The position numbers and the translations under genes are program-made. A stretch of DNA of 44,487 bases, from positions 1 through 44,487 of the forward strand of contig JAQXKS010000069.1 of assembly GCA_029010575.1 (NCBI GenBank), written 5' to 3'. The DNA comes from Bacteroidales bacterium (lineage in GTDB: Bacteria; Bacteroidota; Bacteroidia; Bacteroidales; UBA932). Positions within the stretch are counted from its first letter, which is position 1; each line of letters starts with the position of its first letter. Below are positions 27,769 through 43,366 of this stretch, one piece after another. Below the pieces are notes generated by a model, which was not told the origin of the DNA, made no database searches, and saw only the letters and a program-made list of their open reading frames with translations.

Positions 27769-28408
27769 ACTCTACTTTATTTTTTTCATGCTCCTTACAC
27801 CACTGGGAAATACCGCACTCCTGACATTTTGGATTGCGGGCTGTGCAGATATAACGGCCATGGAGAATGAGCCAATGATGCGCAGTGGCCCTATATTCGG
27901 CAGGAATATGGGCTGTTAGATCCTTCTCCACCTTCTCAGGAGTAGAGCCTTTAGAAAGACCGATCCGGTGGGACACCCTGAAGACGTGAGTGTCGACTGC
28001 AATAACCGGCTCGTTAAACAGAATAGAAGCTACCACATTCGCAGTCTTCCTTCCCACCCCCGGAAGTTTCATGAGTTTTTCGACACTGTCAGGAATCTCT
28101 CCATCGAAATCACTCACAAGCATCTTTGACATCCCTATAAGATGCTCACCTTTGCTGTTGGGATAAGAGACAGATCTGATGATGGCATACAAATCTTCAA
28201 AAGAGGCCTCCGAAAGCGCTTTCGGTGTAGGATACTTACTGAAAAGCACCGGAGTAACCATGTTGACTCTCTTGTCGGTACACTGAGCAGAAAGAATTAC
28301 AGCGCACAACAACTCGAATCCATTCGAGAAATTCAACTCGGATCGGACTGATGGTCTGTTGAGCCTGAACCATTCAATAATGGCATCGTATCTATCATTC
28401 AGTTTCAT
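27758..28408 (-). CDS. nth: Endonuclease III
   Basis: A base-excision-repair DNA glycosylase/AP lyase for oxidised pyrimidines, 216 residues. The helix-hairpin-helix LPGVGRKTANVVAS holds catalytic K121, and D139 is in AVDTHVFRV. The C-terminal [4Fe-4S] loop is C188-x6-C195-x2-C198-x5-C204, the exact Nth spacing. It overlaps xerD by 11 bp and the ABC ATPase gene by 4 bp (ATGA type). Confidence 0.96.
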   Translation of the reverse strand: MKLNDRYDAIIEWFRLNRPSVRSELNFSNGFELLCAVILSAQCTDKRVNMVTPVLFSKYPTPKALSEASFEDLYAIIRSVSYPNSKGEHLIGMSKMLVSDFDGEIPDSVEKLMKLPGVGRKTANVVASILFNEPVIAVDTHVFRVSHRIGLSKGSTPEKVEKDLTAHIPAEYRATAHHWLILHGRYICTARNPKCQECGISQWCKEHEKNKVEYDK

Positions 28409-29103
28409 GCTTCTTCCCTTATCAAATTACAAGAACAGTTCTCACAAAGCCACCTCTTGCCGGGAAATTTGGATATTATAGAACGGTTATGTGTTACCAT
28501 TATGACAGCCGGTCCCATTTCCCTATTGATATTCAACAGAAGATTCATGATACCTTCAGCTGTTTCATCATCAAGATTTCCGGTAGGTTCATCAGCCAAA
28601 ATAATATCAGGTTCGTTAAGCAGGGACCTTGCAATTGCTATACGCTGCTGCTCCCCACCTGAGAGTTGGTGAGGCATCTTGTGAGCCTTCAGAGACATGC
28701 CTACACCTTCAAGGACGCTCTTGATTCTACTGTCGATATCCCTTGAATTGCTCATTCCAGTTGCCTTGAGAACAAAAGCTAAATTATCATACACTGACCT
28801 GTCCATCAATAGCTGGAAATCCTGAAAGACCACCCCTATCTTTCTTCTAAGATACGGTATCTTCCTATTCTTGAGCTTGAGAAGGTCAAACTCTCCTACC
28901 CTTGCCACCTTTCCCTTTACCGGCAATTCGCTGATGAGAGACTTGATAATGGAAGTCTTTCCACTACCTACTTTTCCTTCGATATAAATGAACTCTCCCT
29001 TATTGACAGACATATTAAGAGAGTCAATAATCAGATTCCCATTGTTGAAAATGGAGATATCCTCGAACAGGATAATCGGAAGAGCTTTTTCTGGAGAATC
29101 CAT
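28405..29103 (-). CDS. FtsE/LolD-like ABC transporter ATP-binding protein
   Basis: 232 residues with one ABC domain: Walker A GKVGSGKTS, Q-loop VVFQDFQLL, signature LSGGEQQRIAIARSLL, Walker B DIILADEPTGNLD and switch VMVTHNRSII. The sequence is of the FtsE/LolD type, which pairs with FtsX- or MacB-like permeases in division or lipoprotein release. No permease gene is adjacent. The tail CENCSCN is an unusual cysteine cluster. An in-frame start at 29157 would lie within the terminator of the upstream operon and encodes no conserved residues, so I use the ATG at 29103, 12 bp from that terminator. It overlaps nth by 4 bp. Confidence 0.85.
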   Translation of the reverse strand: MDSPEKALPIILFEDISIFNNGNLIIDSLNMSVNKGEFIYIEGKVGSGKTSIIKSLISELPVKGKVARVGEFDLLKLKNRKIPYLRRKIGVVFQDFQLLMDRSVYDNLAFVLKATGMSNSRDIDSRIKSVLEGVGMSLKAHKMPHQLSGGEQQRIAIARSLLNEPDIILADEPTGNLDDETAEGIMNLLLNINREMGPAVIMVTHNRSIISKFPGKRWLCENCSCNLIREEA

Positions 29104-29114
29104 CGAAACAATAT

Positions 29115-29152
29115 AAAAAAGGGGAAGAAGTCCCGCAGGACAATCCTCCCCT
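29115..29152 (-). terminator. Terminator between GGGtGRT gene and ftsE-like gene
   Basis: On the minus strand there is a two-tier hairpin: outer stem AGGGGAG/TTCCCCT (one G-U pair), inner stem GTCC/GGAC, then TTTTTT (29115-29120). It lies 13 bp after the stop codon at 29166 and ends 12 bp before the ATG of the next gene, so it separates the CoA-transferase operon from the repair genes or attenuates read-through. Confidence 0.8.
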
Positions 29153-29165
29153 GTCAAAATGAAAG

Positions 29166-30179
29166 CTATTTATTCAAAGCTGTAGCCACATCGACAGCCA
29201 CAGCAACTGTTGCACCCACCATAGGGTTATTGCCTATTCCAAGGAAGCCCATCATCTCGACATGAGCCGGAACTGAAGAAGAGCCGGCAAACTGAGCATC
29301 CGAGTGCATACGACCCATGGTATCAGTCATACCATATGAAGCAGGACCTGCCGCCATATTGTCGGGATGAAGAGTACGTCCTGTACCACCACCTGAAGCA
29401 ACAGAGAAGTAATTCTTACCCTGAAGCATACATTCCTTTTTATAGGTTCCTGCAACGGGATGCTGGAAACGGGTAGGGTTGGTAGAATTACCTGTAATGG
29501 AAACATCCACTCCCTCCTTATGCATAATGGCTACCCCTTCACGGACATCATTCGCACCGTAACATCTCACTTTTGCACGAGGACCGTCACTATAAGCAAC
29601 TTCCCTTACGATTTTGAGTTCACCGGTGAAATAGTCAAAATCTGTCTCTACATATGTAAAACCATTGATACGCGAGATAATAAGAGCTGCATCCTTACCC
29701 AGACCGTTAAGAATACACCTGAGGGGTTCTTTACGCACCTTATCAGCTTTTGCTGCAATCTTGATAGCGCCTTCAGCTGCTGCAAAAGATTCATGTCCTG
29801 CAAGGAATGCAAAACATTTGGTCTCTTCGCGCAGAAGACGGGCAGCCAGATTTCCATGTCCGATACCTACTTTACGGTCATCGGCAACAGAACCGGGGAT
29901 ACAGAAAGACTGGAGACCTACTCCGATAGCTTCTGCTGCTTCTGCTGCATTCTTGCATCCTCTCTTGAGAGCAATAGCCGCACCCACTACGTAAGCCCAT
30001 TTTGCATTTTCAAAACAGATAGGCTGTGTCTCCTCACAAGTCTTGTAAGGATCGAGACCATACTGTTCGCAGATTTCATTGGCTTCTTCGATGCTTTTGA
30101 TTCCTTCAGCATTGAGAACAGAGAGAATCTGATTCATTCTTCTGTCCTGACTTTCAAATTTAACATTTCTTATTGCCAT
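29166..30179 (-). CDS. GGGtGRT-family protein (uncharacterised)
   Basis: 337 residues. The run FSVASGGGTGRTLHPDNMA, with GGGTGRT at 263-269, is the signature that names this family of unknown function. Other conserved-looking parts are GVGLQSFCIPGSVADDRKVG and GNSTNPTRFQHPVAGTYKKEC. Nine cysteines (C37, C48, C55, C75, C93, C122, C155, C206, C250) are candidates for an iron-sulfur or metal site. There is no signal peptide and no membrane segment, so it is cytoplasmic. It lies 12 bp after the IscU-like gene, with which the family is known to travel. A role in iron-sulfur chemistry is inferred from that pairing; no activity is known to me. Confidence 0.82.
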   Translation of the reverse strand: MAIRNVKFESQDRRMNQILSVLNAEGIKSIEEANEICEQYGLDPYKTCEETQPICFENAKWAYVVGAAIALKRGCKNAAEAAEAIGVGLQSFCIPGSVADDRKVGIGHGNLAARLLREETKCFAFLAGHESFAAAEGAIKIAAKADKVRKEPLRCILNGLGKDAALIISRINGFTYVETDFDYFTGELKIVREVAYSDGPRAKVRCYGANDVREGVAIMHKEGVDVSITGNSTNPTRFQHPVAGTYKKECMLQGKNYFSVASGGGTGRTLHPDNMAAGPASYGMTDTMGRMHSDAQFAGSSSVPAHVEMMGFLGIGNNPMVGATVAVAVDVATALNK

Positions 30180-30191
30180 ACCAATCTCTCC

Positions 30192-30893
30192 TTATTCTTT
30201 ACGTGGATCAATAAATTTCACTGCACCCTGCTCCTCAGAGAAACGGCCGTAAGTACCGGTTACCTTCTTGAGAGCCTCATTGGCATCTGTTCCCTTCTTG
30301 ATTTCATCCATGAATTTGCCAAGGTGCACGAATTCATATCCGATAATCTGATTATCCTTGTCAAGAGCGATTCTTGAACAATATCCTTCAGCCATTTCAA
30401 GATATCTGGGACCTTTGGCCAGAGTACCGAACATAGTACCAGTCTGACTGCGAAGTCCTTTACCGAGGTCTTCAAGACTTGCGCCTATAGCAAGACCGCC
30501 TTCTGAGAAAGCACTCTGAGTACGTCCATAGACAATCTGAAGGAAAAGTTCTCTCATTGCTGTATTGATAGCATCACATACCAAGTCTGTATTAAGAGCT
30601 TCAAGGAGAGTCTTGCCGGGAAGGATCTCAGAAGCCATTGCAGCTGAGTGAGTCATACCGGAACATCCGATTGTTTCAACAAGCGCTTCCTGAATAATAC
30701 CATCCTTTACATTGAGAGTCAACTTGCAGGCTCCCTGCTGAGGTGCACACCAACCGATACCGTGTGTAAGACCGGAGATATCGGTAATTTCCTTACTTTT
30801 TACCCATTTTCCCTCTTCAGGAATGGGTGCGGGACCGTGATTAGCCCCTTTTGCCACGCAACACATCTGTTGCACTTCGTGTGAATAAATCAT
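30192..30893 (-). CDS. IscU/NifU-like iron-sulfur scaffold-type protein
   Basis: 233 residues. The N-terminal 140 residues resemble the IscU/NifU-N scaffold fold: cysteines C49 (GIGWCAPQQGAC), C77 (ETIGCSGM) and C106 (LVCDAI) sit near the usual triad, and C11-C12 form an extra pair. The C-terminal 90 residues (after FSEGGLAIGASLEDLG) are specific to the group paired with GGGtGRT proteins. It is longer than IscU (about 130 residues). IscU would build [2Fe-2S] clusters; no isc/suf genes are nearby, so a dedicated role for the partner gene is more likely than general assembly. It lies 28 bp after the CoA-transferase gene. Confidence 0.8.
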   Translation of the reverse strand: MIYSHEVQQMCCVAKGANHGPAPIPEEGKWVKSKEITDISGLTHGIGWCAPQQGACKLTLNVKDGIIQEALVETIGCSGMTHSAAMASEILPGKTLLEALNTDLVCDAINTAMRELFLQIVYGRTQSAFSEGGLAIGASLEDLGKGLRSQTGTMFGTLAKGPRYLEMAEGYCSRIALDKDNQIIGYEFVHLGKFMDEIKKGTDANEALKKVTGTYGRFSEEQGAVKFIDPRKE

Positions 30894-30921
30894 ACTAACT
30901 ATTATATAAATAATCTTTAAC

Positions 30922-32226
30922 TTACTTTACAAAATGGTAGTGAGAGCCGAACCTTTCAAATGCGGCCTTGTCGAGTGACTCCCTATGGTCAGGATGGGCT
31001 ACACTGATTATAAGCTTTGCTCTCTCCTGCAGAGACTTGCCATATAAGTCAACAGCTCCGTACTCTGTCACGAACCAGTGGATGTGATTTCTGGTAGTGA
31101 CGACACCGGCACCCGGGGTGAGAATAGGTGCAATCTTGCTGACTCCCTTATTGGTAACTGAGGGCATAGCAATAATCGCTTTTCCTCCCTGTGACATGGA
31201 AGCTCCGTAGATAAAATCTATCTGACCGCCTACTCCACTATAAAAAGTGGTTCCAAGCGAATCTGCACAGACCTGACCGGTAATATCAACCTGCAAAGCG
31301 GAGTTGATGGCAGTAACCTTGGGATTCTTGGCAATTATGTAGGGGTCGTTCGTATAGGCCACATCCATCATTGCCACCATAGGATTGTCATCTATGAAGT
31401 CATAAACCTCTTGAGAACCCATCAGGAATGTAGAGACTATCTTTCCTTTGTCAATAGCCTTGGCAGCTCCATTTATAACCCCGCTTTTAACCAAAGGAAG
31501 CACACCATCTGCAAACATCTCAGTATGTATACCGAGGTTTTTATGACCGGAGAGCTGGCTGAGGACCGCATTGGGGATAGCACCAATTCCCATCTGAAGG
31601 GTGGCTCCATCTTCAATGAGAGATGCACAATTCATACCAATCTTTTCCTCAATTTCCGTAGGCTCAGAAAAATGGGCAGGAGTCAGAGGCTTATCGTCTT
31701 CAACAAAGAAATCTATCATTGAGACAGGAATCATTGCATCACCAAAAGCCCTTGGAACATACTTATTAACTACCGCGATGACATAATCTGCACACTCTAT
31801 TGCCGCAAGAGTAGCATCAACAGAGGTTCCCAATGATACATAGCCATGCTTGTCTACAGGAGAGACCTGAACCATTGCCACATTGCAGGGAAGAACACCT
31901 GATCTATATAGTTTCTGGGTTTCACTTAAGAAAATAGGAATATAATCTGCATATCCGGCCTGAACACTCTTCCTTACATTTCCACCTACAAAGAAAGCTT
32001 CGTGAAAGAAAATTCCTTCATACTCCTTATTGACATATGGAGCTGTCCCCTCGGTATGAAGATGATGGATTCGGACGTCTTTCAATTCACCCGAATCACC
32101 GCGCCTACACAGGGCGTCGATAAGGATTTGAGGAGCCGAAGCAACACTGCTAAGATGTACATGATCACCTGATTTGACCACCTTAACGGCTTCATCAGCT
32201 GAAACAAACTGGATATTATAATTCAT
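30922..32226 (-). CDS. Acyl-CoA:acetate CoA-transferase (AbfT/Cat1-like, acetyl-CoA hydrolase family)
   Basis: 434 residues of the family that includes 4-hydroxybutyrate CoA-transferase and butyryl-CoA:acetate CoA-transferase. The catalytic glutamate is E236 in LGIHTEMFADG, followed by GVGGQIDFIYGASMSQGGKA and the conserved C-terminal part HIHWFVTEYGAVDLYGK. It moves CoA between acetate and an acyl group, typical of anaerobic fermentation. The exact acyl substrate cannot be read. It is the first gene of the operon, with a near-consensus promoter, and precedes the IscU-like and GGGtGRT genes. Length is normal. Confidence 0.88.
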   Translation of the reverse strand: MNYNIQFVSADEAVKVVKSGDHVHLSSVASAPQILIDALCRRGDSGELKDVRIHHLHTEGTAPYVNKEYEGIFFHEAFFVGGNVRKSVQAGYADYIPIFLSETQKLYRSGVLPCNVAMVQVSPVDKHGYVSLGTSVDATLAAIECADYVIAVVNKYVPRAFGDAMIPVSMIDFFVEDDKPLTPAHFSEPTEIEEKIGMNCASLIEDGATLQMGIGAIPNAVLSQLSGHKNLGIHTEMFADGVLPLVKSGVINGAAKAIDKGKIVSTFLMGSQEVYDFIDDNPMVAMMDVAYTNDPYIIAKNPKVTAINSALQVDITGQVCADSLGTTFYSGVGGQIDFIYGASMSQGGKAIIAMPSVTNKGVSKIAPILTPGAGVVTTRNHIHWFVTEYGAVDLYGKSLQERAKLIISVAHPDHRESLDKAAFERFGSHYHFVK

Positions 32227-32290: not shown

Positions 32291-32326
32291 AAAAAAAAGG
32301 TCGCCCGCAAATTAATGCGGACGACC
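32291..32326 (-). terminator. Terminator of envelope redox operon
   Basis: An 11-bp stem, GGTCGCCCGCA (32299-32309) with TGCGGACGACC (32316-32326), one G-U pair and a 6-nt loop, followed on the minus strand by eight T's (32291-32298). It lies 22 bp after the stop codon of the last redox gene (32348). Confidence 0.88.
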
Positions 32327-32347: not shown

Positions 32348-33763
32348 TTATTCCATCTGGTAATCGAGATCCTCACCTACCTTTATTGTGCGGCAGTTAT
32401 CTTCGATGTAGTCGAAGAAGTTAGTATATCCTGCTCCCTTGACATCACCAGTGAATTTACCTTCTCTAAGCACAACTACTACAACAGAAAGATTTTCGTT
32501 CTTTCTAACTGTAGAAGGAATAGCAGCAGAGAATTCGAGAACTTTTTCTTCATTAGCTGTGAAGATATAGTCGTCACCCATAACATTTTCAGTAAGCGCA
32601 ATTTTAGCTACATTATCGTGAACATAGTCACTTGATGCATTCGACTGAGCCTGTACACAACCACTTTCAACGAGGAAGGCCATCACTCTGTATTTCTTAG
32701 CTTCATTTGATTTGATCTTGATAGAAGCATTTACATTGCCGTCAGCTACAGTAAGACTTCCACCTATGTTAGAGATAGCCCAAAGTTCCTGTTTTGCGAG
32801 AGCTTCTTCTTTAAGCTGGGTATAAAGTTCCACCTGTCTGTCTTCCTTAATGTTAACACAGTCGACATAGTTATTAAAAACGCCTGAAGGATAACCTGTT
32901 ACACCATACTGCTTTGAAATAGCACTCATATCAGGGAATGTAAGACCTCCGTCTGAATTACCGTAGAAGTTTACAATTGCAAATCTTTCAGGATCTTCAT
33001 CAATAGCTCTGTGCATTGCACTTGCCATAATAGGACAATAGCCGCACCATGTTGCAGTAAATCTGAAGAAGATATTACGTTTGAAAGGAGTCTTTGAACT
33101 CATCTGAGCGACAGGTATTTCGATTTCATGTCCGTTAGAGGCCTTAAGAACCACCTTATCTTCTCGGAAATTTTCAGAAGATTCCTTTACGGTAGCCTTG
33201 AGGGTGGTAACAACATACTGAGACTTGGTCTTCTTGTCAGAAAGAATCAAAGAGTCAGTAGCTGATTCCTTAACAATTTCGAGCCAAGAGGGTGCAGAGG
33301 CCACTTCGAAAGGAAGAGTGCCCTCAACTTCGATAGGAAGAGACGATTCAACCTGAGATTTGAAAGTGTAGCTGGAATTGATAGAGGCAATACCCTGAAG
33401 GCCCCTCATTATTGCCACATATGTTGAGATCTTTTCACCATCCTGAATACCAAGCTTGTCTTCGATTTCATGGAAGGAGTCATTTGACTTGAGAGAGGTG
33501 AATTTGAGATTGACATCACCTGCAAAACCGCTCTTGGGAGAGACCTGAAGCCAATCAGGACACTTAACAATCATCCAGTTGTTTTCAAACTTATGAGGCA
33601 GTTCAACACTTTCACCCTCAACAGAAGAGAATACGTACTGTACGTCTGTAACAGTAGGCTCATCAGGACCATCATCAGGACCTTCTGTTTTCTGCTGACA
33701 GGAAACAAGAGCAAACATAGAAGCTGCAAAAAGCAGAATGAATTTAAAAATGTTCTTTTTCAT
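32348..33763 (-). CDS. Omp28-related lipoprotein with thioredoxin-like domain (second copy)
   Basis: 471 residues. A lipoprotein signal ends in LVSC (lipidated C22), followed by an acidic linker. Residues about 40-220 look like two BACON/Ig-like modules (CPDWLQVSPKSGFAGDVNLKF, then SSYTFKSQVESS onward). From about 228 there is a thioredoxin-like domain with FTATWCGYCPIM (C240-GY-C243) and a cis-Pro segment GYPSGVFNN. The Omp28-type C-terminus follows. Expected at the outer membrane with its redox centre in the periplasm. It lies 14 bp after the DUF6029 gene and 22 bp before the terminator. It is a paralogue of the gene at 35883-37295. Likely an oxidoreductase or electron carrier served by DsbD; substrate unknown. 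Confidence 0.85.
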   Translation of the reverse strand: MKKNIFKFILLFAASMFALVSCQQKTEGPDDGPDEPTVTDVQYVFSSVEGESVELPHKFENNWMIVKCPDWLQVSPKSGFAGDVNLKFTSLKSNDSFHEIEDKLGIQDGEKISTYVAIMRGLQGIASINSSYTFKSQVESSLPIEVEGTLPFEVASAPSWLEIVKESATDSLILSDKKTKSQYVVTTLKATVKESSENFREDKVVLKASNGHEIEIPVAQMSSKTPFKRNIFFRFTATWCGYCPIMASAMHRAIDEDPERFAIVNFYGNSDGGLTFPDMSAISKQYGVTGYPSGVFNNYVDCVNIKEDRQVELYTQLKEEALAKQELWAISNIGGSLTVADGNVNASIKIKSNEAKKYRVMAFLVESGCVQAQSNASSDYVHDNVAKIALTENVMGDDYIFTANEEKVLEFSAAIPSTVRKNENLSVVVVVLREGKFTGDVKGAGYTNFFDYIEDNCRTIKVGEDLDYQME

Positions 33764-33777
33764 CAGTAATTAATTAT

Positions 33778-35379
33778 TTACATCATTACAATAACTGAAA
33801 GGTTGACACCGGTATAGGCAGGAGTCATACGACAAACACCACCTGAACAGAGATATCCCTCCTTGAAACGGCCTGCATTCAAGGCAGCTCTTACCTTTCC
33901 ATAAGAGTATCCTACACTACCGTTAATGTAGTGAGTATTGGTCTGACCGTAGTTCCACATATCCTGAATGCTGACACTCCATCTGGGAGCCAGATTGTAC
34001 TCAACCAATGCAGCGACCCAATTCTTGTGATCCTGTTGTGTGTACAGATGTTGTACTTCAAATCTCAACGAATTCTTTCTATTGATCTTATAAGTAACAT
34101 CAGCAACTACAGTATGAGAATCCCAAAGGAGTGAAGGATTTTCAGGGTTTCCTTTTCCAATAGTATTAGGGTTGAATGTCTGCCATGTATAGTAGAGAAT
34201 CATCTTGACACTTTTTCCCCACCAACGTTCAAGGTCAATGGTAAGGTCTCTGAAAAGAAGCGAAGTATTAGCAGAGAGTTCACCCACTTCAAGGTATTTT
34301 CCATAGAAAGTCGAGAAGTTCGCGTGAACCTTCATACCCTTCTTGCCGCCCATGACAGAGCCCTTCTTGAAATTATAGAAAAGGTCGACCTGTCCACCAA
34401 TCTCATCGGCCTGAGGAGAATAGGGGTTCATTGTAGCAAGCATATATGTGTGCTGCTGTGTCAAAGCAGGAACATAGTTGATAAGGGTAAACATTTCTGT
34501 CTTACCCCTGTAGCCCTGGAACGAGGCATTCTTCAACTGACGGAAAGTAGCAAGTGCACCAAAACCATATCCTGAGTAACCGAGTTCAACCTGAATTGCA
34601 CGGTTACGAGAGGTATCATTTGCATTGTAGAATCCAGGGTCGCTCTTTCTGTCCATATATTCTCCCTTTAGGATAAAGCCATGGGTTCCAAAGTTGAGTC
34701 TTGCAGAATAACCGGTGGTCAGGGGTGATTTGGCCTCTCCGGAAATAGCTTGATATTTATTGACAACACTACCTTCAACAGAGAGATCTATATTGTCAAG
34801 CTTAGCTGCATTGGAAATGGAGAAAGAAAGGTCTGCTGCTGCGACAGAAGAAGATGTGTTGTAGTCATAATCGAAATCCTGACGCACCAAACCGTAAAGG
34901 CCCTTTACAGTAAGATAATCACCAAAAGTGTATGCAACCCTTGCACCCTTAAGGGCATTGTTCACACCCAAGGTACGGTCTTCATAAGTTCTGAGAATAA
35001 GGCCGCTTCCGAACTGTTCGAAAAGGCTGCCGACCCTAATGTCCCATCCTTTTGAGTTAAAACCAGCATAGTAGTCATAACGGGCCATTCTCTGACCCGA
35101 AAGAGACATGGGAAAATATCCTGAAAGTGCAGGAAGATAGAGCTCTACCTGTGTTCCGAAAGAGAAGCCACCCTTAACATAATCTACCTTTAAGTAGTTG
35201 TTGGAACCGAACTTCATGTCGGGAGCCATAGCTCCTGTCTTTTCATCGTTGAAGTAGTAGGTAGTGTTAGTTTCGAAACTTGAAGAGAGAGTACCCTTAT
35301 CCTCTCCCTCGTTCTGTGCGAAAAGGGAGGGGACAAGAGCCATTGCAGCCAATATAGAGACTATTGATTTTCTATACAT
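33778..35379 (-). CDS. DUF6029-like outer-membrane barrel protein
   Basis: 533 residues. A signal peptide (SIVSILAAMALVPSLFAQ) is followed by a chain with strong beta-barrel character: repeating aromatic and Gly-rich strands (GKVRAALNAGRFKEGYLC) to a hydrophobic end. The overall order matches the DUF6029 outer-membrane proteins found beside TlpA and Omp28 genes. Near the C-terminus is the pair C511-x4-C516 (CSGGVCRM), the only two cysteines I find in the protein. They could form a disulfide and be the target of the neighbouring thioredoxins. It lies 6 bp after the tlpA-like gene and 14 bp before the second Omp28 gene. Function unknown. Confidence 0.8.
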   Translation of the reverse strand: MYRKSIVSILAAMALVPSLFAQNEGEDKGTLSSSFETNTTYYFNDEKTGAMAPDMKFGSNNYLKVDYVKGGFSFGTQVELYLPALSGYFPMSLSGQRMARYDYYAGFNSKGWDIRVGSLFEQFGSGLILRTYEDRTLGVNNALKGARVAYTFGDYLTVKGLYGLVRQDFDYDYNTSSSVAAADLSFSISNAAKLDNIDLSVEGSVVNKYQAISGEAKSPLTTGYSARLNFGTHGFILKGEYMDRKSDPGFYNANDTSRNRAIQVELGYSGYGFGALATFRQLKNASFQGYRGKTEMFTLINYVPALTQQHTYMLATMNPYSPQADEIGGQVDLFYNFKKGSVMGGKKGMKVHANFSTFYGKYLEVGELSANTSLLFRDLTIDLERWWGKSVKMILYYTWQTFNPNTIGKGNPENPSLLWDSHTVVADVTYKINRKNSLRFEVQHLYTQQDHKNWVAALVEYNLAPRWSVSIQDMWNYGQTNTHYINGSVGYSYGKVRAALNAGRFKEGYLCSGGVCRMTPAYTGVNLSVIVMM

Positions 35380-35385
35380 AACAAA

Positions 35386-35874
35386 TTACTGAAGTTTGAG
35401 GATTTGTTCAAAAAGTTCCTCTTCATTACCCGGAGTATATCCTATATGAGTATAAACGATCTTGCCGTCCTTGTCAAGAAGGAATACTGTAGGCTGAGTC
35501 TGAACATTCATAGCACGTTTGAGATCTCCGTTTACATCGAGAAGGAAAGTAAACTCAGACCATCCGCGACCCTTTACCATAGGTGCTACTTTGGAGCTTG
35601 ATCTTGAATCATCAGTTGAAACAGCCACAAACTTGAAAGAAGCTTCTTCCTGCCAGTCTGACCATGCATCATTAACAGCTCCAAGCTCCTGAAGACATGG
35701 CTTGCATGTGGTATACCAGAAAGAGAGTACCACGGGAACACCATCTTCAAGAATAGAACGTATGTTAACTTCATTTCCTTCAAGGTCTGTAACATTCACA
35801 TTAGGCAGACTCTTCTGAGCTGATGCAAGGAAAGGCAGACAAAGTGCAACAATTGCAATTAAGATTTTTTTCAT
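35386..35874 (-). CDS. TlpA-like periplasmic thioredoxin
   Basis: 162 residues. A signal peptide (ILIAIVALCLPFLASAQ, cleaved before KSLPN) is followed by one thioredoxin fold of the TlpA/ResA type: WYTTCKPC with C57-KP-C60, and cis-Pro TQPTVFLLD. The mature protein would be a soluble periplasmic dithiol carrier or reductase. It starts 8 bp after the first Omp28 gene and ends 6 bp before the DUF6029 gene. In this operon it is the best candidate to shuttle electrons from DsbD to the outer-membrane proteins. Confidence 0.93.
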   Translation of the reverse strand: MKKILIAIVALCLPFLASAQKSLPNVNVTDLEGNEVNIRSILEDGVPVVLSFWYTTCKPCLQELGAVNDAWSDWQEEASFKFVAVSTDDSRSSSKVAPMVKGRGWSEFTFLLDVNGDLKRAMNVQTQPTVFLLDKDGKIVYTHIGYTPGNEEELFEQILKLQ

Positions 35875-35882
35875 AGAGCTAT

Positions 35883-37295
35883 TTATTCGTATTTGTAATC
35901 AACAAGTGAACCTACAGGACAGTAGATAACATTATCGACAATATTGCCAAAGTCCATATAATCAGCATTAGCAACAGAACCGTGGTAATTACCTTCATAA
36001 GTAACGTAAGCAATAATTGCCAGATTATTTTGATCACGTACAGCTGATGGAACATCTACAGAGAGGGGTACATATTTGATAGAGTTAGCTTCGAAGCTAT
36101 AATCATCACCCATATGTGCTGCAGTCATAGCTGTTCTGGCTACATAGTTATGAACATAGTTTGCTCCACCATTGGTCTGGCTCTGTACGATGTCGTTTTC
36201 AACGAGGAATACATGAAGTTTGCACTGTTTGGCCTCTTTGGTTGCTATGAAGAGCTCGAGGTTAACTTTATTGCCGTCAAGTGATGATACACATGCGAGC
36301 TGTGAGTTTGCAGGAAGGTTATTTTTAGCTTCATTAGCAAGGCCTTTAATGATATTTGCTGTAGTAGCAGAAGAGTAGTTAGCCACCTGTGCAACATCAT
36401 TCATAGCTCCGGTAGGGTAGCCCTCAACCTTATAGTAGTTCTGCATTTCGTTCACGAACCTATAAGTAAGATCCTGACTCTGTGCACCGTAGATATTGAG
36501 GTTAACAATACGTCCTTCTTCTTCCTTCATCGCAATCTTGAATGCTTCTGCCATCATAGGACAGTATCCGCACCAAGTAGCGGTGAAACGTACACCAAGG
36601 CTTCTTCTATAGAATGTTTTAGCATAATCAACATTACCGATCTGCTGTACTGGAATTTCTGCCAGGCTCTGACCATCAGTAGTTTTAAGGCTGATTGTAG
36701 ATTCCCTATAGTCTCCGGTATTTTCAGTTGCAGAGATGCTTACCCTGTAGGTTTTTGTCTGTGAATATGTCTTTCCATCAGCAAGAAGGGTAGAGTCAAT
36801 CTTTGCTACAGACTTAACTTCGAACCAATCTGAACCTTCACCCTTAGAATATTCGAAAGGAGCAGAGGCCTTTACAATAAGATCCAGTTCGCCGCCTTTA
36901 CCTGCGAATGTAGCAGTCTTGGGAGAACAAGATGCTCCCAGAGCAGGACGCTGGAAAACATAGTATCTGATATGTTCAGTACCAACGTTTACCACGATAG
37001 TACTTTCAACTTCAGCGAAAGACTCATTCGCTTTGGTAGTGGTGAAGGTCAGTTTGTTTGAACCTGCAAAACCTGAAAGAGGAGAAACTGTAAAGTTATC
37101 TCCGGTCTTAATGATCTGCCAGTCACCTGGAAAATCCAATGTAGCTTCAGTAACATTCTGAGCTGCGGCATCAAGAAATACTACATCAGAGGCCTGAGGA
37201 CCATCAGGTTCCTTCTCGTTAACAGTGTTACAAGAAGAGAACATTGAAACCATAGCGAGCATTAAAGCTCCAAATGAAATTGTTCTAAGATTCAT
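35883..37295 (-). CDS. Omp28-related lipoprotein with thioredoxin-like domain (first copy)
   Basis: 470 residues with lipobox FSSC (lipidated C22). It has the same plan as the gene at 32348-33763: two BACON/Ig-like modules (FPGDWQIIKTGDNFTVSPLS and a second about 115-215), then a thioredoxin-like domain with FTATWCGYCPMM (C242-GY-C245) and GYPTGAMND as the cis-Pro loop. The C-terminus is clearly related to the paralogue (YVHNYVARTAMTAAHMGDDY against YVHDNVAKIALTENVMGDDY). It starts 18 bp after dsbD and precedes tlpA by 8 bp. An outer-membrane-anchored oxidoreductase of unknown substrate. Confidence 0.85.
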   Translation of the reverse strand: MNLRTISFGALMLAMVSMFSSCNTVNEKEPDGPQASDVVFLDAAAQNVTEATLDFPGDWQIIKTGDNFTVSPLSGFAGSNKLTFTTTKANESFAEVESTIVVNVGTEHIRYYVFQRPALGASCSPKTATFAGKGGELDLIVKASAPFEYSKGEGSDWFEVKSVAKIDSTLLADGKTYSQTKTYRVSISATENTGDYRESTISLKTTDGQSLAEIPVQQIGNVDYAKTFYRRSLGVRFTATWCGYCPMMAEAFKIAMKEEEGRIVNLNIYGAQSQDLTYRFVNEMQNYYKVEGYPTGAMNDVAQVANYSSATTANIIKGLANEAKNNLPANSQLACVSSLDGNKVNLELFIATKEAKQCKLHVFLVENDIVQSQTNGGANYVHNYVARTAMTAAHMGDDYSFEANSIKYVPLSVDVPSAVRDQNNLAIIAYVTYEGNYHGSVANADYMDFGNIVDNVIYCPVGSLVDYKYE

Positions 37296-37313
37296 CGTTA
37301 AATAGTTTTTATT

Positions 37314-39278
37314 CTAGTTGTTTTTAAAATTTTCTATACCACCATTAAGGAATTCGATGAAAGCCTCAACGTCAAGGTTGTAACCTCTAGGTTCTGCAAG
37401 TTTCCTGCCATCAGGTGACTCAAGGATATAATATGGCTGTGCATTGGCGCCATACTTAGAGAACGCTATATATGAGTTAATCTTTCCTAAAGTCTTCAGA
37501 GTTTTTCCGCCAGCCTCAATCCAATTCTCTTCGGGTACTTCCATCTTATCGTCACAGTACAGAGCACAGATGACATACTGGTTTCTGAGAATATCCAGAA
37601 CCCTTGGATCTGCCCATACCCTTGATTCCATCTCGCGACAGTTCACACATGCGTGACCGGTGAAGTCAATAAAGAGTGGCTTGCCTACCTTCTTGGCGTA
37701 AGCCCTTGCCTGCTCGAGATCAAAGAATCCGTTAAGACCGTGCGAGAGCTTGAGTTTGTCAGCATATTTGACTTTGGTTATATCGTAATCTTCCATTTCG
37801 TATGCAACAGTCTTGTCATAGAACCAGCCTTTCTGCTGTTCAGGAGGCAAGTAACCTGAGAGAGCTCTAAGAGGAGCTCCGAAGAGACCGGTAATCAAAT
37901 ATATGTCAAACGCCAATACAATAATCGTGAATATGATTCTTGCAGCAGACCACTTCCTTACCTTGTCAACACCTTTGAAGCGAATGAATCCCAACATAAA
38001 AATGAACAGGAGAGTAAAGATTACAATCCAAATTGCTAAATAGATATCTCTGGGGAGAATATTCCAGTGGTAAGCCTGGTCAGCCATAGAGAGGAACTTG
38101 AATGCAAGAGCAGTTTCAACAAAACCGAGGATCACCTTTACAGAACCGAGCCATCCACCGCTCTTTGGCATTTTGCTCAAGAGTGAAGGGAACATTGCAA
38201 GCAATGTGAAAGGAAGAGCGAATGCAGTAGAGAATGCAAGCATAGTAACGATAGGTGTCCAGAACTCACCGGAAACCGAACGAATAACGACATTACCTAC
38301 AATAGGGCCGGTACATGAGAATGATACCAGAACCAGAGTAAGTGCCATGAAGAAGATACCACCGAATCCCTTAGTGTCAGCCTTGCTGTCTGTCTTGGTA
38401 GTCACAGAACCAGGAAGTGTAATTTCGAACAGACCGAAGAAAGAGAGTGCAAAGACAATGAACACTATGAAGAATATGATGTTAGGCAGCCAGTTGGTAG
38501 CAAGCCAGTTGAAAATATCAGTAGTAACTGCATCCCCTCCGAAGATTCTGGTAATGAGAATCAGAGCCGCAATAGGAAGAGTATATAGTATAATGATGAA
38601 GAATCCATAAAGGAACGCTCTCTTTCTTCCTGTTGCAGGATCCGGAGAACCCTTCATAAAGAACGACACAGTCATGGGGACCATAGGGAAGATACATGGA
38701 GTAAGCAGAGCGACTAGACCCCAAATGATAGCTTCGATAATCATGCTGAGAAGATTGCCACCGCCCACTTTAACAGATCCGGTTTGGGAGATAGTATCCT
38801 CTGCTACCGCTCCGTTGCTGTCAATTGCTATTTTCAACTCTTCATCGCCGAAAACACAACTTACAGAATCACAAGCCTGCCATTCCACATTTACAAGGAA
38901 GTCTGCTCTTTCAGCAAGGAGTTCGATCTGCTGAGTAAAGACGACACAATCTTCAAAGTAAGCAACATCCACCATGAAGACATCATCATAATACTTGTTT
39001 ATCTTACCTGAAATCTGAAGAGGACCGACCTTCTTCGCAGCAGGTCTATTGGAATCACCGAGAACTTTGATAGTCATCAGAGTTTCCTTAGGACCACCAG
39101 TGTAAGTAGTATCGTAAATGTGCCAATGTGAGTCAATTTGACCTGTCAAGACAAGTTCAAAATGAGAATCATCCAATTTGTTTACGCTAGAGTTCCACTT
39201 CACATGCGTCTCCTGTGCAAACAAAGCGAATGATGATAGTAAAATAACTATTACCGATAAAAAGCTTTTGAATTTCAT
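37314..39278 (-). CDS. dsbD: Thiol:disulfide interchange protein DsbD
   Basis: 654 residues. After a signal peptide (ILLSSFALFAQ) comes the N-terminal domain with C136-x4-C141 (ACDSVSC). The membrane part has paired cysteines C195 (LLTPCIFPMVP) and C322 (FSCTGPIVG). The C-terminal thioredoxin domain has C544-VN-C547 (GHACVNCREME). All three thiol pairs of DsbD are there, so it can carry electrons from cytosolic thioredoxin to the periplasm. It heads the run Omp28-tlpA-DUF6029-Omp28, with gaps of 18 bp or less. A weak -7-like TATCTTAG (39300-39307) lies upstream, so transcription may also come from the lipoprotein gene 39 bp before it. Confidence 0.95.
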   Translation of the reverse strand: MKFKSFLSVIVILLSSFALFAQETHVKWNSSVNKLDDSHFELVLTGQIDSHWHIYDTTYTGGPKETLMTIKVLGDSNRPAAKKVGPLQISGKINKYYDDVFMVDVAYFEDCVVFTQQIELLAERADFLVNVEWQACDSVSCVFGDEELKIAIDSNGAVAEDTISQTGSVKVGGGNLLSMIIEAIIWGLVALLTPCIFPMVPMTVSFFMKGSPDPATGRKRAFLYGFFIIILYTLPIAALILITRIFGGDAVTTDIFNWLATNWLPNIIFFIVFIVFALSFFGLFEITLPGSVTTKTDSKADTKGFGGIFFMALTLVLVSFSCTGPIVGNVVIRSVSGEFWTPIVTMLAFSTAFALPFTLLAMFPSLLSKMPKSGGWLGSVKVILGFVETALAFKFLSMADQAYHWNILPRDIYLAIWIVIFTLLFIFMLGFIRFKGVDKVRKWSAARIIFTIIVLAFDIYLITGLFGAPLRALSGYLPPEQQKGWFYDKTVAYEMEDYDITKVKYADKLKLSHGLNGFFDLEQARAYAKKVGKPLFIDFTGHACVNCREMESRVWADPRVLDILRNQYVICALYCDDKMEVPEENWIEAGGKTLKTLGKINSYIAFSKYGANAQPYYILESPDGRKLAEPRGYNLDVEAFIEFLNGGIENFKNN

Positions 39279-39317: not shown

Positions 39318-41267
39318 TCAGTCAAGTACTATTTTTTTAACCTTTTTTAATTTTTTTACCTCTAAATCCTTTGAATCTCCTTTTACGCAGGCTTTTGGAT
39401 ACATGGGTGCAATGACCTGATTCGGATTGTTCCATGCTTCCATCAGATCAAGGAACTCCTGAGGATCGCTGACCCCATCAGCCGTGAGTGTGAACTCCTT
39501 TTTATATAGAGGGCCATAAATACCATCGGGATCGACAGCCACGGCTACCGCTGTATAGCTCTGATCAAAAGAGAGTGCAGCAACAGAACGATACTGTTTG
39601 GGACCTCCATTCTTTATGAGCTTCTTGATCATATTGTCTGTAATTCCTTCAAACTGCTCGGATGTGAAGATACCATAGTATATGCTCTCTTGCGCTCCAT
39701 AGGGATTTACAGTAACTTCAAACGGGAGCAGGGCATCTTTATAATCATAGATTTGCCAGTTGGAATCGAGTCTTGAAACTTCAGCCACAGAATAGTAATT
39801 ACCGATATTCATATCGACGACTATTCCATCACCCCCCTCTTCGAGAGTAGTAAACTTGGTCTTGAAAAGCGATGTGGTATTAATACCGGCATCATATCCA
39901 AAAGCAACGACATAGTAAGAGGTGGCAGAATAGAGGTCCATCACCTTAAAAGACTGGTCCCCATTATAAGTAGTCAGAGAAAACATCGTATAGAGATACT
40001 CCATCAGATCGTTTTCTTCCATACCCTCCACAGTTGACTCAGAAAGCAATGCTATTGTGTAAGGATCAGAATTAGAGACACTGATATTCACTTCAGCTGT
40101 ATTCTGAGTAATATTGTATACAGATATATCTATTTGATTTTCTGAAGCTTCTGGTTTCTCTATTTCAAATTCGTATGTATAGACATTTGTACAGACATAA
40201 CCAGAGAGAGAGTCTACACCGTAAATACCCAATATATATGGTACTCCTGCTTTGAATCCCTCTGAAGAGAGTGATTGGTTACCCTTATAGCAGAACAGCT
40301 CAAGTATCTGATCCATAGTAGCACCATATTCTACCCACATAAGCATCGTATATCTCCAGTCTTCGGAAAACGCCAACTGGTAATCATTACCATAGGCATC
40401 CTCTACTGAAGATTTCGTATATATCCTATAAGAATAGTATCCTTCATACTCGGTTGAAATATCCAGATTCACCACATTGCTCACAAAAGAGAGAGCCACA
40501 TCCCACTGCACATCTTCGGTAGAAACACCAGAGGTGGTAAATACCTCCTTTACCAGTTTAGTGGTAACAACACACTTTTCTATATCTACGCCATACATAT
40601 AGGCAACATATTCAGTTTCGGGTTCCAGACCGTTCATGACGCAACCGGTAGTATCACCTGAATTGGCAAAAGAAGCAAAAACTTCACTCAGTGGTACATC
40701 ATTGATATCGGCAATATTCTGGAAATAAGCTATATCGTCAGCAATAAGTTTTTCATCAGTATCCAGGCCGTTTTGTTGAAGGTAAAGGGACGAGGCGACC
40801 AAAAAGACATAAGGCTGATTTTGATCAGCAGCCTCAATATCGAAAGTAACTGATCCGGCAGAGACATCTGTAATTTTGATTGAAAAAGGTTCTTTCTCAG
40901 AAGCATCCTGAATCACTGAACAATATACTGTTTCAGCACCGGGGTAGGCAACAGCCAGAGAAGCGCTTCTTGCCTGAGTCACTCCGGAGGCAGATACCAC
41001 AAATCGTACTTCACCCTCAGCAGCCAGAGGGTCATACTCTATGGAAGTAACAACTACCGAATCTGAAGCAGTCACACTAAGGGTGGCCCCATCCACAGGA
41101 TTTAGAACTTTATAAGCAAAATAGAAATCTCCTCCCATAGATGATGATTCAAAAACAGTGCTACTCAATTCTATCTCAGGAGTATTTATTTCCTCCTTGG
41201 GGGTACATGAAAACAAAAGAGAACCTGAAAGAGCCAATGCAAATAACTGTACAAACTTTTTTAACAT
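39318..41267 (-). CDS. Multi-domain lipoprotein (BACON-like plus FN3-like repeats), copy 1
   Basis: 649 residues with lipobox LLFSC (C21). The +4 to +6 residues Lys-Glu-Glu resemble the Bacteroidota surface-export signal K-(D/E)2, so it may be on the cell surface. Residues about 26-120 form a BACON/Ig-like domain. Then come repeated FN3-like modules, recognised by L-x-P-x-T-x-Y ending strands (GLEPETEYVAYMYGVD, YSATSYYVVAFGYDAG), several with an extra acidic helical insert (such as EKLIADDIAYFQNIAD). It belongs with the next two genes. It starts just 9 bp after the terminator of copy 2, and dsbD follows 39 bp downstream. Function unknown; carbohydrate or protein binding is plausible. Confidence 0.75.
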   Translation of the reverse strand: MLKKFVQLFALALSGSLLFSCTPKEEINTPEIELSSTVFESSSMGGDFYFAYKVLNPVDGATLSVTASDSVVVTSIEYDPLAAEGEVRFVVSASGVTQARSASLAVAYPGAETVYCSVIQDASEKEPFSIKITDVSAGSVTFDIEAADQNQPYVFLVASSLYLQQNGLDTDEKLIADDIAYFQNIADINDVPLSEVFASFANSGDTTGCVMNGLEPETEYVAYMYGVDIEKCVVTTKLVKEVFTTSGVSTEDVQWDVALSFVSNVVNLDISTEYEGYYSYRIYTKSSVEDAYGNDYQLAFSEDWRYTMLMWVEYGATMDQILELFCYKGNQSLSSEGFKAGVPYILGIYGVDSLSGYVCTNVYTYEFEIEKPEASENQIDISVYNITQNTAEVNISVSNSDPYTIALLSESTVEGMEENDLMEYLYTMFSLTTYNGDQSFKVMDLYSATSYYVVAFGYDAGINTTSLFKTKFTTLEEGGDGIVVDMNIGNYYSVAEVSRLDSNWQIYDYKDALLPFEVTVNPYGAQESIYYGIFTSEQFEGITDNMIKKLIKNGGPKQYRSVAALSFDQSYTAVAVAVDPDGIYGPLYKKEFTLTADGVSDPQEFLDLMEAWNNPNQVIAPMYPKACVKGDSKDLEVKKLKKVKKIVLD

Positions 41268-41275
41268 ACCAATAG

Positions 41276-41302
41276 AAAAAGGGGGCGGTTCATTACGCCC
41301 CC
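41276..41302 (-). terminator. Terminator after lipoprotein copy 2, abutting copy 1 start
   Basis: GGGGGCG (41281-41287) and CGCCCCC (41296-41302) form a 7-bp G-C stem with an 8-nt loop, followed on the minus strand by TTTTT. It sits between the copy 2 stop codon (41333) and the copy 1 start codon (41267), only 9 bp from the latter. Confidence 0.85.
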
Positions 41303-41332
41303 AAGATTATTTATTATTTATGAAAAATATGA

Positions 41333-43366
41333 CTATTTCTTGAGAAAATCTCTACGAAGCGAGTCGCTCTTCATAGAAGAGAGGTCAATCTCTTCAATTC
41401 TCTTTTCACGGGTCTTGAATACTCTTGGCTGAGCATTCTTAACTGACAGAGGAGAAGCTATCTCCTGAATATGTTTCATCACTGATGGAGCAAATCCGTT
41501 TGCAGGTGCAGCGCTTCCGCCATAGAGAGCGTTAATCAGGTCAAGTATTGCCTGAGGATCACCAGTTGCACCCTCTTCAGTAATTACAATCTTGTCACTG
41601 AACACGATATCAGAATATCTTCCTTCAGTATCCTTAACAAGCGCAGCAACTGCCAATTCATCTCCATAGTTCAGGATATAGATAGCTTGTGCTCCTGTTG
41701 CACTTGCACCCTGATATAGGAGGTAATCAGCAAACACGTCAGGCTCATTTGCTTCTACATCCTCATAAGAGAAGACACCAAAATAATAATCACTAACCTC
41801 ACCACCCTCAAGGATATTTACTTTAACATCAGCAAATACATCATTTTGTGAAAAATCGCTCCAAGTGGGATCAAGAGCTATAACCGAAGCTGTAGGACAA
41901 TAACTGTCAATTCCACAGGTAATCTTCACATCAGAAGGAATATCGACCTCAGTAGTAAACTTCTTTGAGAATAGAGGTGTCGTAGCCTGACCTCCGGCAT
42001 AACCGAAGCAATGAATAGCGTAGGTGGTTTCAGGCTGCAAACTTGAAGCAGTTCCTTCATAGACGCCCTGAACTGTACCAATGTTGAAGTTTTCAAGAAT
42101 ATGGTCAATAATATCCTGGTCACCTGTTGTAGGGAATTCTACATCATCATACAATACCAAAGCATAGTAGTCATCATTAGAAGGAGTAACTTTGATATGT
42201 GCACTTCTTGAGCCTACCTCTGTAACTTCGATTTCGATAGTCATATCTGAAGGTTTAACATCACCAGAAGTAAATTCATAAATTTCAGGTTTTGAATTCT
42301 GATATGCTGTAGCAGGATCCACCGCAAATGCAGCTGCAAAATACTTGGTATTAGGCATGATATTGGCAGGATTGTAAGTAGCATTTCCAGAGAAAGCAAG
42401 AGCTTCGATAATATCATCTGGAGTAAATCCGAACATCAAGTAGATATTTACGAGACTCATCCAGTTTACGCCTACGAACTCTTCGAGACTAAGTTCTTCT
42501 TCTTCAGCCGATTCTACAGAATAGACATCAAGGATGTAGGGACCGTCAATGGAAGGAGTAGCCTCAACAGCCACATTAACTCCGTCAACAGATACCTTGA
42601 GGGAGAATGATGCATCAATCATGGGAAGAGCAGGAGTGCTTACGGCTTCACGAGTAATATCGGTAAGTCTTGCCCAATCCTTTTCAGAATCGACACCATA
42701 AGCATATACTACATATGCTGTTTCTGGATTGAGGCCAGAATAAGCTACATCCAACTGGTCACCCACAACGGTCAAAGTTTCCCATACTTCATTAATATCC
42801 ATTGCATAATATTCGGCAACCATTTCCATATATGCCTTATCATCCTGATAAAGAGCCTCATCATCAGCAAACGATGCCAATTCCTCCTCTTTTGCAATGA
42901 ATGAAAGGAATCTCATCTCCTTATCTTTCAAGATAATGTCAGCAGTGAATGATGTTGCCTGAACATCCTTGACATTGATAGTGATGGGAAGTTCATCAGC
43001 AGCACTTTGGTTGACGACAAAGACTACAGGCTGAGCACCTTCATAAGAGAAAGTCAGTTCAGACTGGCGTGTCTGTGTCTCTTTGTTTTTTGCCACAGTA
43101 AACTCCACAGTTCCTTTGTTTCCTTCAGAAACTACAAGATCACTAATCCAGTCACAGTCCTGAGCTACTGCTACCTGAAGAGCGACACCCTCTACGGGAT
43201 TGAGAATTTCGAAAGCGACAGACAAAGAGTTACCTGCAGCCTCGACAGCTGTTTCTGTCATATTGAGTTTTATGACAGGAGCTTCTTGTTTAGGCTTGTT
43301 ACAAGATACTAAAACGAGTAACGACAATACCGAAATAATAACGGCTGGAAACATTTTTTTACTCAT
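41333..43366 (-). CDS. Multi-domain lipoprotein (BACON-like plus FN3-like repeats), copy 2
   Basis: 677 residues with lipobox LVLVSC (C22). An N-terminal BACON/Ig-like domain (about 30-120; NPVEGVALQVAVAQDCDWIS, VFVVNQSA) is followed by FN3-like modules that end in GLNPETAYVVYAYGVD, MPNTKYFAAAFAVD and LQPETTYAIHCFGYAGG. A helix-rich insert (EEFVGVNWMSLVNIYLMFGF) lies inside the second module. The tail after about residue 600 is Pro/Ala-rich, then charged (KTREKRIEEIDLSSMKSD). It is closest to copy 3. It has its own promoter (43394-43425) and a strong terminator, so it can be expressed alone. Function unknown. Confidence 0.75.
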   Translation of the reverse strand: MSKKMFPAVIISVLSLLVLVSCNKPKQEAPVIKLNMTETAVEAAGNSLSVAFEILNPVEGVALQVAVAQDCDWISDLVVSEGNKGTVEFTVAKNKETQTRQSELTFSYEGAQPVVFVVNQSAADELPITINVKDVQATSFTADIILKDKEMRFLSFIAKEEELASFADDEALYQDDKAYMEMVAEYYAMDINEVWETLTVVGDQLDVAYSGLNPETAYVVYAYGVDSEKDWARLTDITREAVSTPALPMIDASFSLKVSVDGVNVAVEATPSIDGPYILDVYSVESAEEEELSLEEFVGVNWMSLVNIYLMFGFTPDDIIEALAFSGNATYNPANIMPNTKYFAAAFAVDPATAYQNSKPEIYEFTSGDVKPSDMTIEIEVTEVGSRSAHIKVTPSNDDYYALVLYDDVEFPTTGDQDIIDHILENFNIGTVQGVYEGTASSLQPETTYAIHCFGYAGGQATTPLFSKKFTTEVDIPSDVKITCGIDSYCPTASVIALDPTWSDFSQNDVFADVKVNILEGGEVSDYYFGVFSYEDVEANEPDVFADYLLYQGASATGAQAIYILNYGDELAVAALVKDTEGRYSDIVFSDKIVITEEGATGDPQAILDLINALYGGSAAPANGFAPSVMKHIQEIASPLSVKNAQPRVFKTREKRIEEIDLSSMKSDSLRRDFLKK

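Follow-up and report, generated by a model that had tools for sequence, protein, structure and literature searches.

A TlpA-like thioredoxin and a DUF6029 outer-membrane barrel inherited as a pair in Bacteroidota: a possible unit for thiol exchange between periplasm and cell surface

On contig JAQXKS010000069.1 of a Bacteroidales bacterium (GenBank assembly GCA_029010575.1, order Bacteroidales, lineage UBA932), five closely packed genes encode a DsbD-like thiol reductase, a TlpA-like thioredoxin, two Omp28-type thioredoxin lipoproteins (Omp28A and Omp28B) and an outer-membrane barrel of the family DUF6029, which raises the question of what a barrel does in the company of four thiol-redox proteins. 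The window referred to below is the whole stretch of DNA analysed, 44,487 nucleotides long. An earlier note, made from the sequence, had read the five genes as a complete thiol-redox relay from inner to outer membrane. As that note described, they form an operon with gaps of at most 18 bp. The order is DsbD-Omp28A-TlpA-barrel-Omp28B, the gaps measure 18, 8, 6 and 14 bp, and the five minus-strand open reading frames (ORFs), at 39278-32348, all start with ATG. The cysteine motifs it listed (three pairs in DsbD, WCGYC in both Omp28 proteins, CKPC in TlpA), the lipid anchors of the Omp28 pair (a lipobox-like sequence with Cys22 in each) and a strong terminator after Omp28B (11-pair stem, 8 G-C pairs, eight T) were also recovered. 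Each of the five proteins falls in a known family. The answer reached here is that the barrel and TlpA, whose pairing was established by computation, possibly form an outer-membrane unit that relays thiol exchange between periplasm and cell surface, a relay to which we give somewhat less than an even chance.

Of 395 sampled Bacteroidota genomes, 98 had a match to the Pfam profile of DUF6029. A first set of 80 neighbourhoods was taken from 79 of the 97 matched genomes other than that of the window; after one weak match that is not a barrel was dropped (L058, 48.9 bits, excluded from every count) and the window was added, it held 80 barrels from 26 families. The 18 matched genomes outside this set belong to families already sampled. 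A second set of 80 further neighbourhoods came from named genomes and includes L111, a relative 98% identical to the window. A TlpA bearing a CxxC adjoined the barrel, or was fused to it, in 66/80 neighbourhoods (24/26 families) of the first set and 76/80 of the second; the count of 66 is slightly low, since the TlpA directly before the barrel in L100 (G329) was missed through an over-long ORF call. An Omp28 was found within four genes of the barrel in 62/80 (22/26 families) and 74/80 neighbourhoods, respectively. Among control genes of these loci, five or more genes distant from the barrel, TlpA was found in 5/261 and 0/179, and Omp28 in 1/261 and 0/179. Five family-f25 loci lacking Omp28 (L052, L055, L056, L065 and L066) have TlpA-like lipoproteins with CxHC after the barrel, and a sixth locus of that family (L054) has a TlpA-like protein with CPLC there. 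What recurs is a unit of TlpA, barrel and a second thioredoxin-like protein, usually Omp28. DsbD was close to the barrel in just 2/80 and 3/80 neighbourhoods. The gene-order survey that the earlier note had suggested thus upheld the linkage of TlpA and Omp28 and not that of DsbD; what stands of its claim is a thiol-redox module with an outer-membrane barrel, and the complete relay from the inner membrane does not hold as stated. DsbD was accordingly dropped from the general system, and in the operon it is a clade-specific extra.

A7, a profile of TlpAs linked to barrels, several of which belong to genomes searched later, was run on the 395 genomes, with nine first-look candidates scored per genome. 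At E<=1e-28 it matched 104 genomes, including all 97 in which the barrel is present, and the best TlpA scores in these 97 were 121-245 bits. Seven of the 298 barrel-less genomes matched weakly, at 102-113.2 bits, and none was reported above 113.2 bits. Unlinked TlpAs of 227-245 bits, on another contig or far away, were kept in eight genomes of family f34 and in G212, and three of four named genomes without a TlpA adjoining the barrel have one elsewhere (184-191 bits). TlpA and the barrel are the core of the unit, a pair strictly co-inherited even when unlinked, with one exception.

The pair also occurs as one polypeptide. In both sampled genomes of one genus (family f5), TlpA and barrel form a single protein of 667 aa (L080) or 671 aa (L192), 67% identical to each other, which lacks the barrel's own signal peptide and whose two parts are joined by about nine linker residues in the model; in nine related loci (L193-L201) the barrel is a separate ORF. 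The fusion is hardly a sequencing slip, because it is kept in two species and has no internal signal peptide, and in it TlpA is joined to the barrel's N-terminal end, which is periplasmic. The fusion protein of L080 was folded with an alignment (A6) of 80 further natural sequences, trimmed barrels included, and gave a predicted local distance difference test (pLDDT) score of 91.1 and a predicted template-modelling score (pTM) of 0.81. If the barrel part is assumed to keep a pTM of about 0.89, the value to expect is about 0.70 for a TlpA that floats freely and about 0.83 for one held firmly in place. The value obtained corresponds to a mean error near 6 Å and suggests that TlpA holds a defined position relative to the barrel in the fusion, which may be inside the barrel or under it. 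The earlier note had taken the barrel for a client whose disulfides may be reduced; a mere client fits poorly, because one TlpA orthologue is strictly co-inherited with the barrel (97/97) and fused to it in one genus.

The barrel of the window matched DUF6029 (PF19494) at 3.2e-170 over profile positions 6-536 of 538, and is thus a full-length member; this match (residues 7-531) was the only one in a Pfam scan. Its only cysteines, C511 and C516, form a C-x4-C pair of the CxGGxC type near the C-terminus, a feature found here that stands outside any published family definition. The pair is invariant in 78/78 full-length barrels of the first alignment (A1) and provides two of only eight invariant columns; a barrel cut short (L031) and one split over two frames (L067) are outside this alignment and inside the 80 neighbourhoods. 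The second set, with the pair in 80/80 barrels, was found by patterns that include the motif and is not independent of it, as the first set, found with the Pfam profile, is. In the AlphaFold2 model the barrel is predicted to have 24 strands, with C511/C516 in its last extracellular loop (residues 506-521). This loop is the most conserved segment (3.01 bits), followed by loop 120-142 (2.78 bits), against a baseline of 1.85 bits for strands and 1.73 bits for extracellular loops overall. With the cysteines in a predicted extracellular loop, a relay would need to work through or across the barrel. The best structural match of the model was a 24-strand usher pore, and usher pores pass folded domains of the size of a pilin. 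LptD came first in the Foldseek list, and chain B of the Mtr complex (6r2q_B) was ranked 25. Searched against PDB sequences, a profile of the barrel alignment hit only RecA constructs, in three short matches taken as chance.

The active site of the window TlpA is C57-KP-C60 in the context YTTCKPC, in which Thr replaces the Trp usual before CKPC. C57, C60 and P128, the presumed cis-proline, are invariant in 29/29 aligned TlpAs. With its CxxC, this proline and a signal-like N-terminus (judged by eye), the protein is a secreted thioredoxin of the TlpA/ResA type, and it scored under the NCBIfam cut-offs of the narrower ResA, DsbE and TlpA models. Among solved structures, the dedicated TlpA came closest to PDB 2m72 (210.9 bits; the next, ResA, scored 98.5), an uncharacterised thioredoxin-like protein whose active site, NCKPC, lacks the Trp as does TTCKPC in the window. 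The protein of 2m72 is presumably PG_2175 of Porphyromonas gingivalis, which would place it two genes from PG2173. As a separate observation on gene arrangement, a lipoprotein-like gene of 1026-1040 aa stands directly before the barrel in L122, L124 and L125, all metagenome-assembled genomes (MAGs), and the dedicated TlpA is elsewhere in the genome.

Both Omp28 copies of the window matched the Omp28 family (PF11551; Omp28A 1.6e-22, Omp28B 1.5e-21; 77.4 and 80.6 bits against a cut-off of 34.9) behind a thioredoxin CxxC (C242-GY-C245 and C240-GY-C243). Omp28A also matched Thioredoxin (7.8e-6) and, under the cut-off, BACON (0.0019), and Omp28B matched BACON (1.7e-5). Against the narrower Omp28 lipoprotein model NF033782, with a cut-off of 150 bits, Omp28A scored 45.4 bits and Omp28B gave no match, so the window copies have diverged from that model. 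The alignment of partners (A3) took in both window copies and 118 of 119 references. L141 was left out because its ORF call held no CxxC; the gene has a frame break, with CGNC upstream in the same frame. Six further loci, mostly cut by contig ends, are outside the Omp28 list (L070, L124, L136, L172, L184 and L185). C240, C243 and P292, a presumed cis-proline, are invariant in 120/120 aligned partners. Conservation of the cysteines in relatives, a check that the earlier note had called for, was therefore borne out for Omp28 as well as for the barrel. The NCBIfam model of an Omp28-related selenoprotein was matched by 101/120 partners (E<=0.001), which fits a redox-active site in Omp28. Three downstream Omp28 proteins hold two CxxC each, L097:3390-5459 (689 aa), L118:7660-9816 (718 aa) and L119:2302-5175 (957 aa), and look as if two Omp28 thioredoxins had been fused.

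A sorting domain (type A) of the type IX secretion system (T9SS) is present in 19/120 Omp28 partners, and these are expected to be extracellular, on the cell surface. SprA, the T9SS translocon, was found in 95/97 barrel genomes as against 302/395 overall, the lists being compared by eye. The barrel was considered as a T9SS component and rejected as a rule, since G230 (99% complete) and G000 (87%) have the barrel and no SprA match. PG0534/PorF, a gingipain-related outer-membrane barrel, was also considered as a relative of DUF6029 and rejected, since PMC5445135 and PMC8564354 describe it as a 92 kDa TonB-dependent receptor. Omp28 of P. gingivalis is PG2173, which is called a lipoprotein in PMC9722745 and a surface adhesion or receptor protein in PMC7290125. 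For Paraprevotella clara, PMC9477747 reports that trypsin recruitment and degradation need an Omp28-related protein. PG2173, PG2174, PG2175, Omp28 and disulfide are not mentioned in a T9SS interactome (PMC8754138), nor are Omp28, TlpA, thioredoxin, disulfide or DUF6029 in a study of the Bacteroidota BAM complex (PMC12578637).

In the mechanism that we favour, DUF6029 and the dedicated TlpA would make up a single, obligate redox unit in the outer membrane of Bacteroidota. On the periplasmic side, either at the wide pore of the 24-stranded barrel or within it, TlpA would carry out thiol-disulfide exchange with the C-x4-C hairpin of the barrel's last extracellular loop. The hairpin would exchange in turn with a thioredoxin-type partner at the outer membrane or cell surface, which would be Omp28 as a rule and a TlpA-like lipoprotein in family f25. 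Reducing (or oxidising) equivalents would in this way be carried between periplasm and surface, comparably to DsbD/CcdA at the inner membrane, and in the clade of the window TlpA would be kept reduced by the DsbD encoded with it in the operon. Exchange between TlpA and the hairpin is the most economical mechanism, and is proposed because TlpA and barrel are kept together and the two cysteines of the barrel are the point at which it could occur. Passed on to the outer thioredoxin, such exchange would amount to a relay; ending at the barrel, it would make TlpA a maturation factor private to that barrel. What we infer is that the parts make contact and that transfer takes place, along with its direction and end substrates; as to direction, the DsbD in the operon and the TlpA/ResA type of the thioredoxin point to reduction. 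A bolder form, in which TlpA plugs the 24-stranded barrel, passes electrons to the hairpin on the outer face and powers surface thioredoxins (Omp28, secreted by T9SS or lipid-anchored) that act on extracellular proteins, as the first bacterial outer-membrane thiol conduit, seems to us somewhat unlikely.

Several observations weigh against the mechanism we favour. The exception to co-inheritance, G534 (L136), with its barrel at a contig end, had only TlpA matches at the level of paralogues (<=69 bits). TlpA could hang below the barrel in the fusion instead of entering it, the pTM argument being indirect, and the C-x4-C of the extracellular loop could be a plain structural disulfide. On the outer side, 18/80 and 6/80 loci have no Omp28 within four genes of the barrel, and an Omp28 Pfam match (E<=1e-5) was absent in 3/13 genomes, 12 of which had been chosen for having no adjacent Omp28; Omp28 is for these reasons not obligate. 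An acidic start after the lipid cysteine is given as a lipoprotein export signal in PMC5080379, and a two-acid rule for surface export in PMC12578637. Among the six residues that follow the lipid cysteine, Omp28A and Omp28B of the window each have a single acidic one, fewer than this rule asks for, so that a surface position is uncertain for them.

The strict co-inheritance of TlpA and barrel and the invariant cysteines would also be accounted for if TlpA were a dedicated maturation factor that reduces or isomerises the barrel disulfide during assembly, with Omp28 helping or proof-reading at the outer membrane, C511-C516 serving as a structural lock and nothing being carried across. There is a precedent in LptD, which tops the Foldseek matches and needs disulfide factors. 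However, a disulfide between residues five apart needs no isomerase in principle, a permanent fusion of TlpA and barrel would bind the enzyme to its product for life, and the partners with a T9SS sorting domain would act extracellularly, too late for assembly. On balance we consider maturation rather unlikely. Unlikely to a greater degree is a channel selective for its substrate, be it a thiol, a metal complex or some other small molecule, in which the extracellular loops would be a redox- or metal-operated gate and TlpA and Omp28 would reset the gate or reduce the cargo; no particular cargo was indicated among neighbours that were identified for four profiled families only, so that a cargo gene could be missed. 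A polysaccharide-export barrel of the Wzi/AlgE kind with thioredoxins as general envelope helpers is highly improbable: PMC9603273, the one open-licence paper found to name DUF6029, which it treats as a possible polysaccharide porin, reports many of 28 Wzi-barrel-type proteins near OPX genes as HHpred-similar to DUF6029, but the recurrent linked genes among the four profiled families (polysaccharide genes were not scanned for) are thioredoxins, general helpers leave the one-to-one inheritance of TlpA with the barrel unexplained, and the barrel's best structural match is a usher pore.

Thiol relays are known across the inner membrane, and we know of none across an outer membrane. The proposed relay resembles that of DsbD/CcdA in its components: a thioredoxin domain, a membrane protein that carries two paired cysteines and, across the membrane, another thioredoxin-like protein as acceptor. 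A DsbD-like protein also heads the operon of the window. The proposed relay differs in that a barrel of the outer membrane takes the place of the membrane protein and has its cysteine pair in an extracellular loop, as predicted, and in that 78/80 and 77/80 neighbourhoods have the unit without a linked DsbD. The layout of barrel, periplasmic redox protein and outer lipoprotein is that of MtrCAB, chain B of which is among the Foldseek matches, with thiols in place of haems and with insertion of TlpA into the barrel only hypothetical; no cytochrome match was found among the five operon proteins, which thus lack the multihaem cytochromes of MtrCAB. LptD/LptE also pairs a cysteine-bearing outer-membrane barrel with a lipoprotein, whereas the barrel here matches DUF6029 alone in Pfam, has two invariant cysteines five residues apart and comes with a dedicated thioredoxin inherited one-to-one with it. 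P. gingivalis Omp28 is the namesake of the family of the window copies, which add a BACON-type N-terminal half, and the parts of PMC9722745 and PMC7290125 available do not discuss a redox role for it. PDB 2m72 resembles the dedicated TlpA in its Trp-less CKPC site and in a profile score more than twice that of the next entry, and its solved structure covers the thioredoxin alone. By analogy, the module recalls DsbD/CcdA in its logic, MtrCAB in its layout and LptD in its thiol partners, and as a whole it belongs to none of them. No description of the module as such was found in open-licence literature, in searches judged largely by titles and the first lines of abstracts.

If the unit carries thiol equivalents outward, Bacteroidota would control disulfides on their surface and in their surroundings, the gut included. 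Should TlpA do no more than mature its barrel, the strict co-inheritance of thioredoxin and barrel, seen across 26 of the Bacteroidota families sampled, would still give two unexplained protein families a functional link that is new, and the fusion protein makes this link testable with one polypeptide.

The features of the operon are listed in Table 1. The terminator was one of 14 terminator-like matches in the scan, as against 8.3 ± 3.1 in shuffled sequences, and its count of G-C pairs was the highest of the 14. Upstream, a gene at 39318-41267 ends 39 bp before DsbD with no terminator-like site listed between them, so the transcript may begin upstream of the boundary drawn in the earlier note.

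Table 1. Coordinates of the operon features within the window.
Feature	Position	Strand	Description
DsbD-like inner-membrane thiol reductase	37314..39278	-	654 aa; Pfam DsbD_N, DsbD_TM, Thioredoxin_7
Omp28A lipoprotein	35883..37295	-	470 aa; Pfam PF11551, Thioredoxin; BACON-like N-terminal region
Dedicated TlpA, thioredoxin-like	35386..35874	-	162 aa; Pfam AhpC-TSA/Redoxin; signal-peptide-like N-terminus
DUF6029 outer-membrane barrel	33778..35379	-	533 aa; predicted 24 strands
Codons of C511-SGGV-C516	33832..33849	-	Predicted last extracellular loop (506-521)
Omp28B lipoprotein	32348..33763	-	471 aa; BACON, thioredoxin motif WCGYC, Omp28 domain
Intrinsic terminator, closes operon	32299..32326	-	11-pair stem, 8 G-C pairs, then TTTTTTTT

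The DsbD-like protein has the three domains of DsbD (DsbD_TM 2.2e-19, DsbD_N 2e-6, Thioredoxin_7 1.1e-10), each with a cysteine pair: C136/C141 in nDsbD, C195/C322 in the transmembrane part and C544-VN-C547 in the thioredoxin domain. Its total score of 121.9 under the NF001419 cut-off of 330 makes it a distant member of the DsbD family. In two close relatives, labelled Candidatus Cryptobacteroides and Bacteroidales, the position of DsbD before Omp28 is taken by a stand-alone nDsbD domain of 149-150 aa that keeps the cysteine pair (L114:3602-4051 and L115:3575-4027), the membrane and thioredoxin parts being absent.

Two large lipoprotein-like genes (649 and 677 aa; window 39318-43366) precede DsbD, the second with a BACON domain, and the nearer may share the operon transcript. 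On the 3' side of the terminator, four genes at 28405-32226, read by eye, include an acyl-CoA hydrolase/transferase, an iron-sulfur scaffold protein and a GGGTGRT-motif protein. The closest named record was a MAG labelled uncultured Alistipes sp., 98% identical across the barrel, and the next-closest barrels, at 57-63% identity, came from MAGs labelled Bacteroidales, Candidatus Cryptobacteroides and Candidatus Coprenecus.

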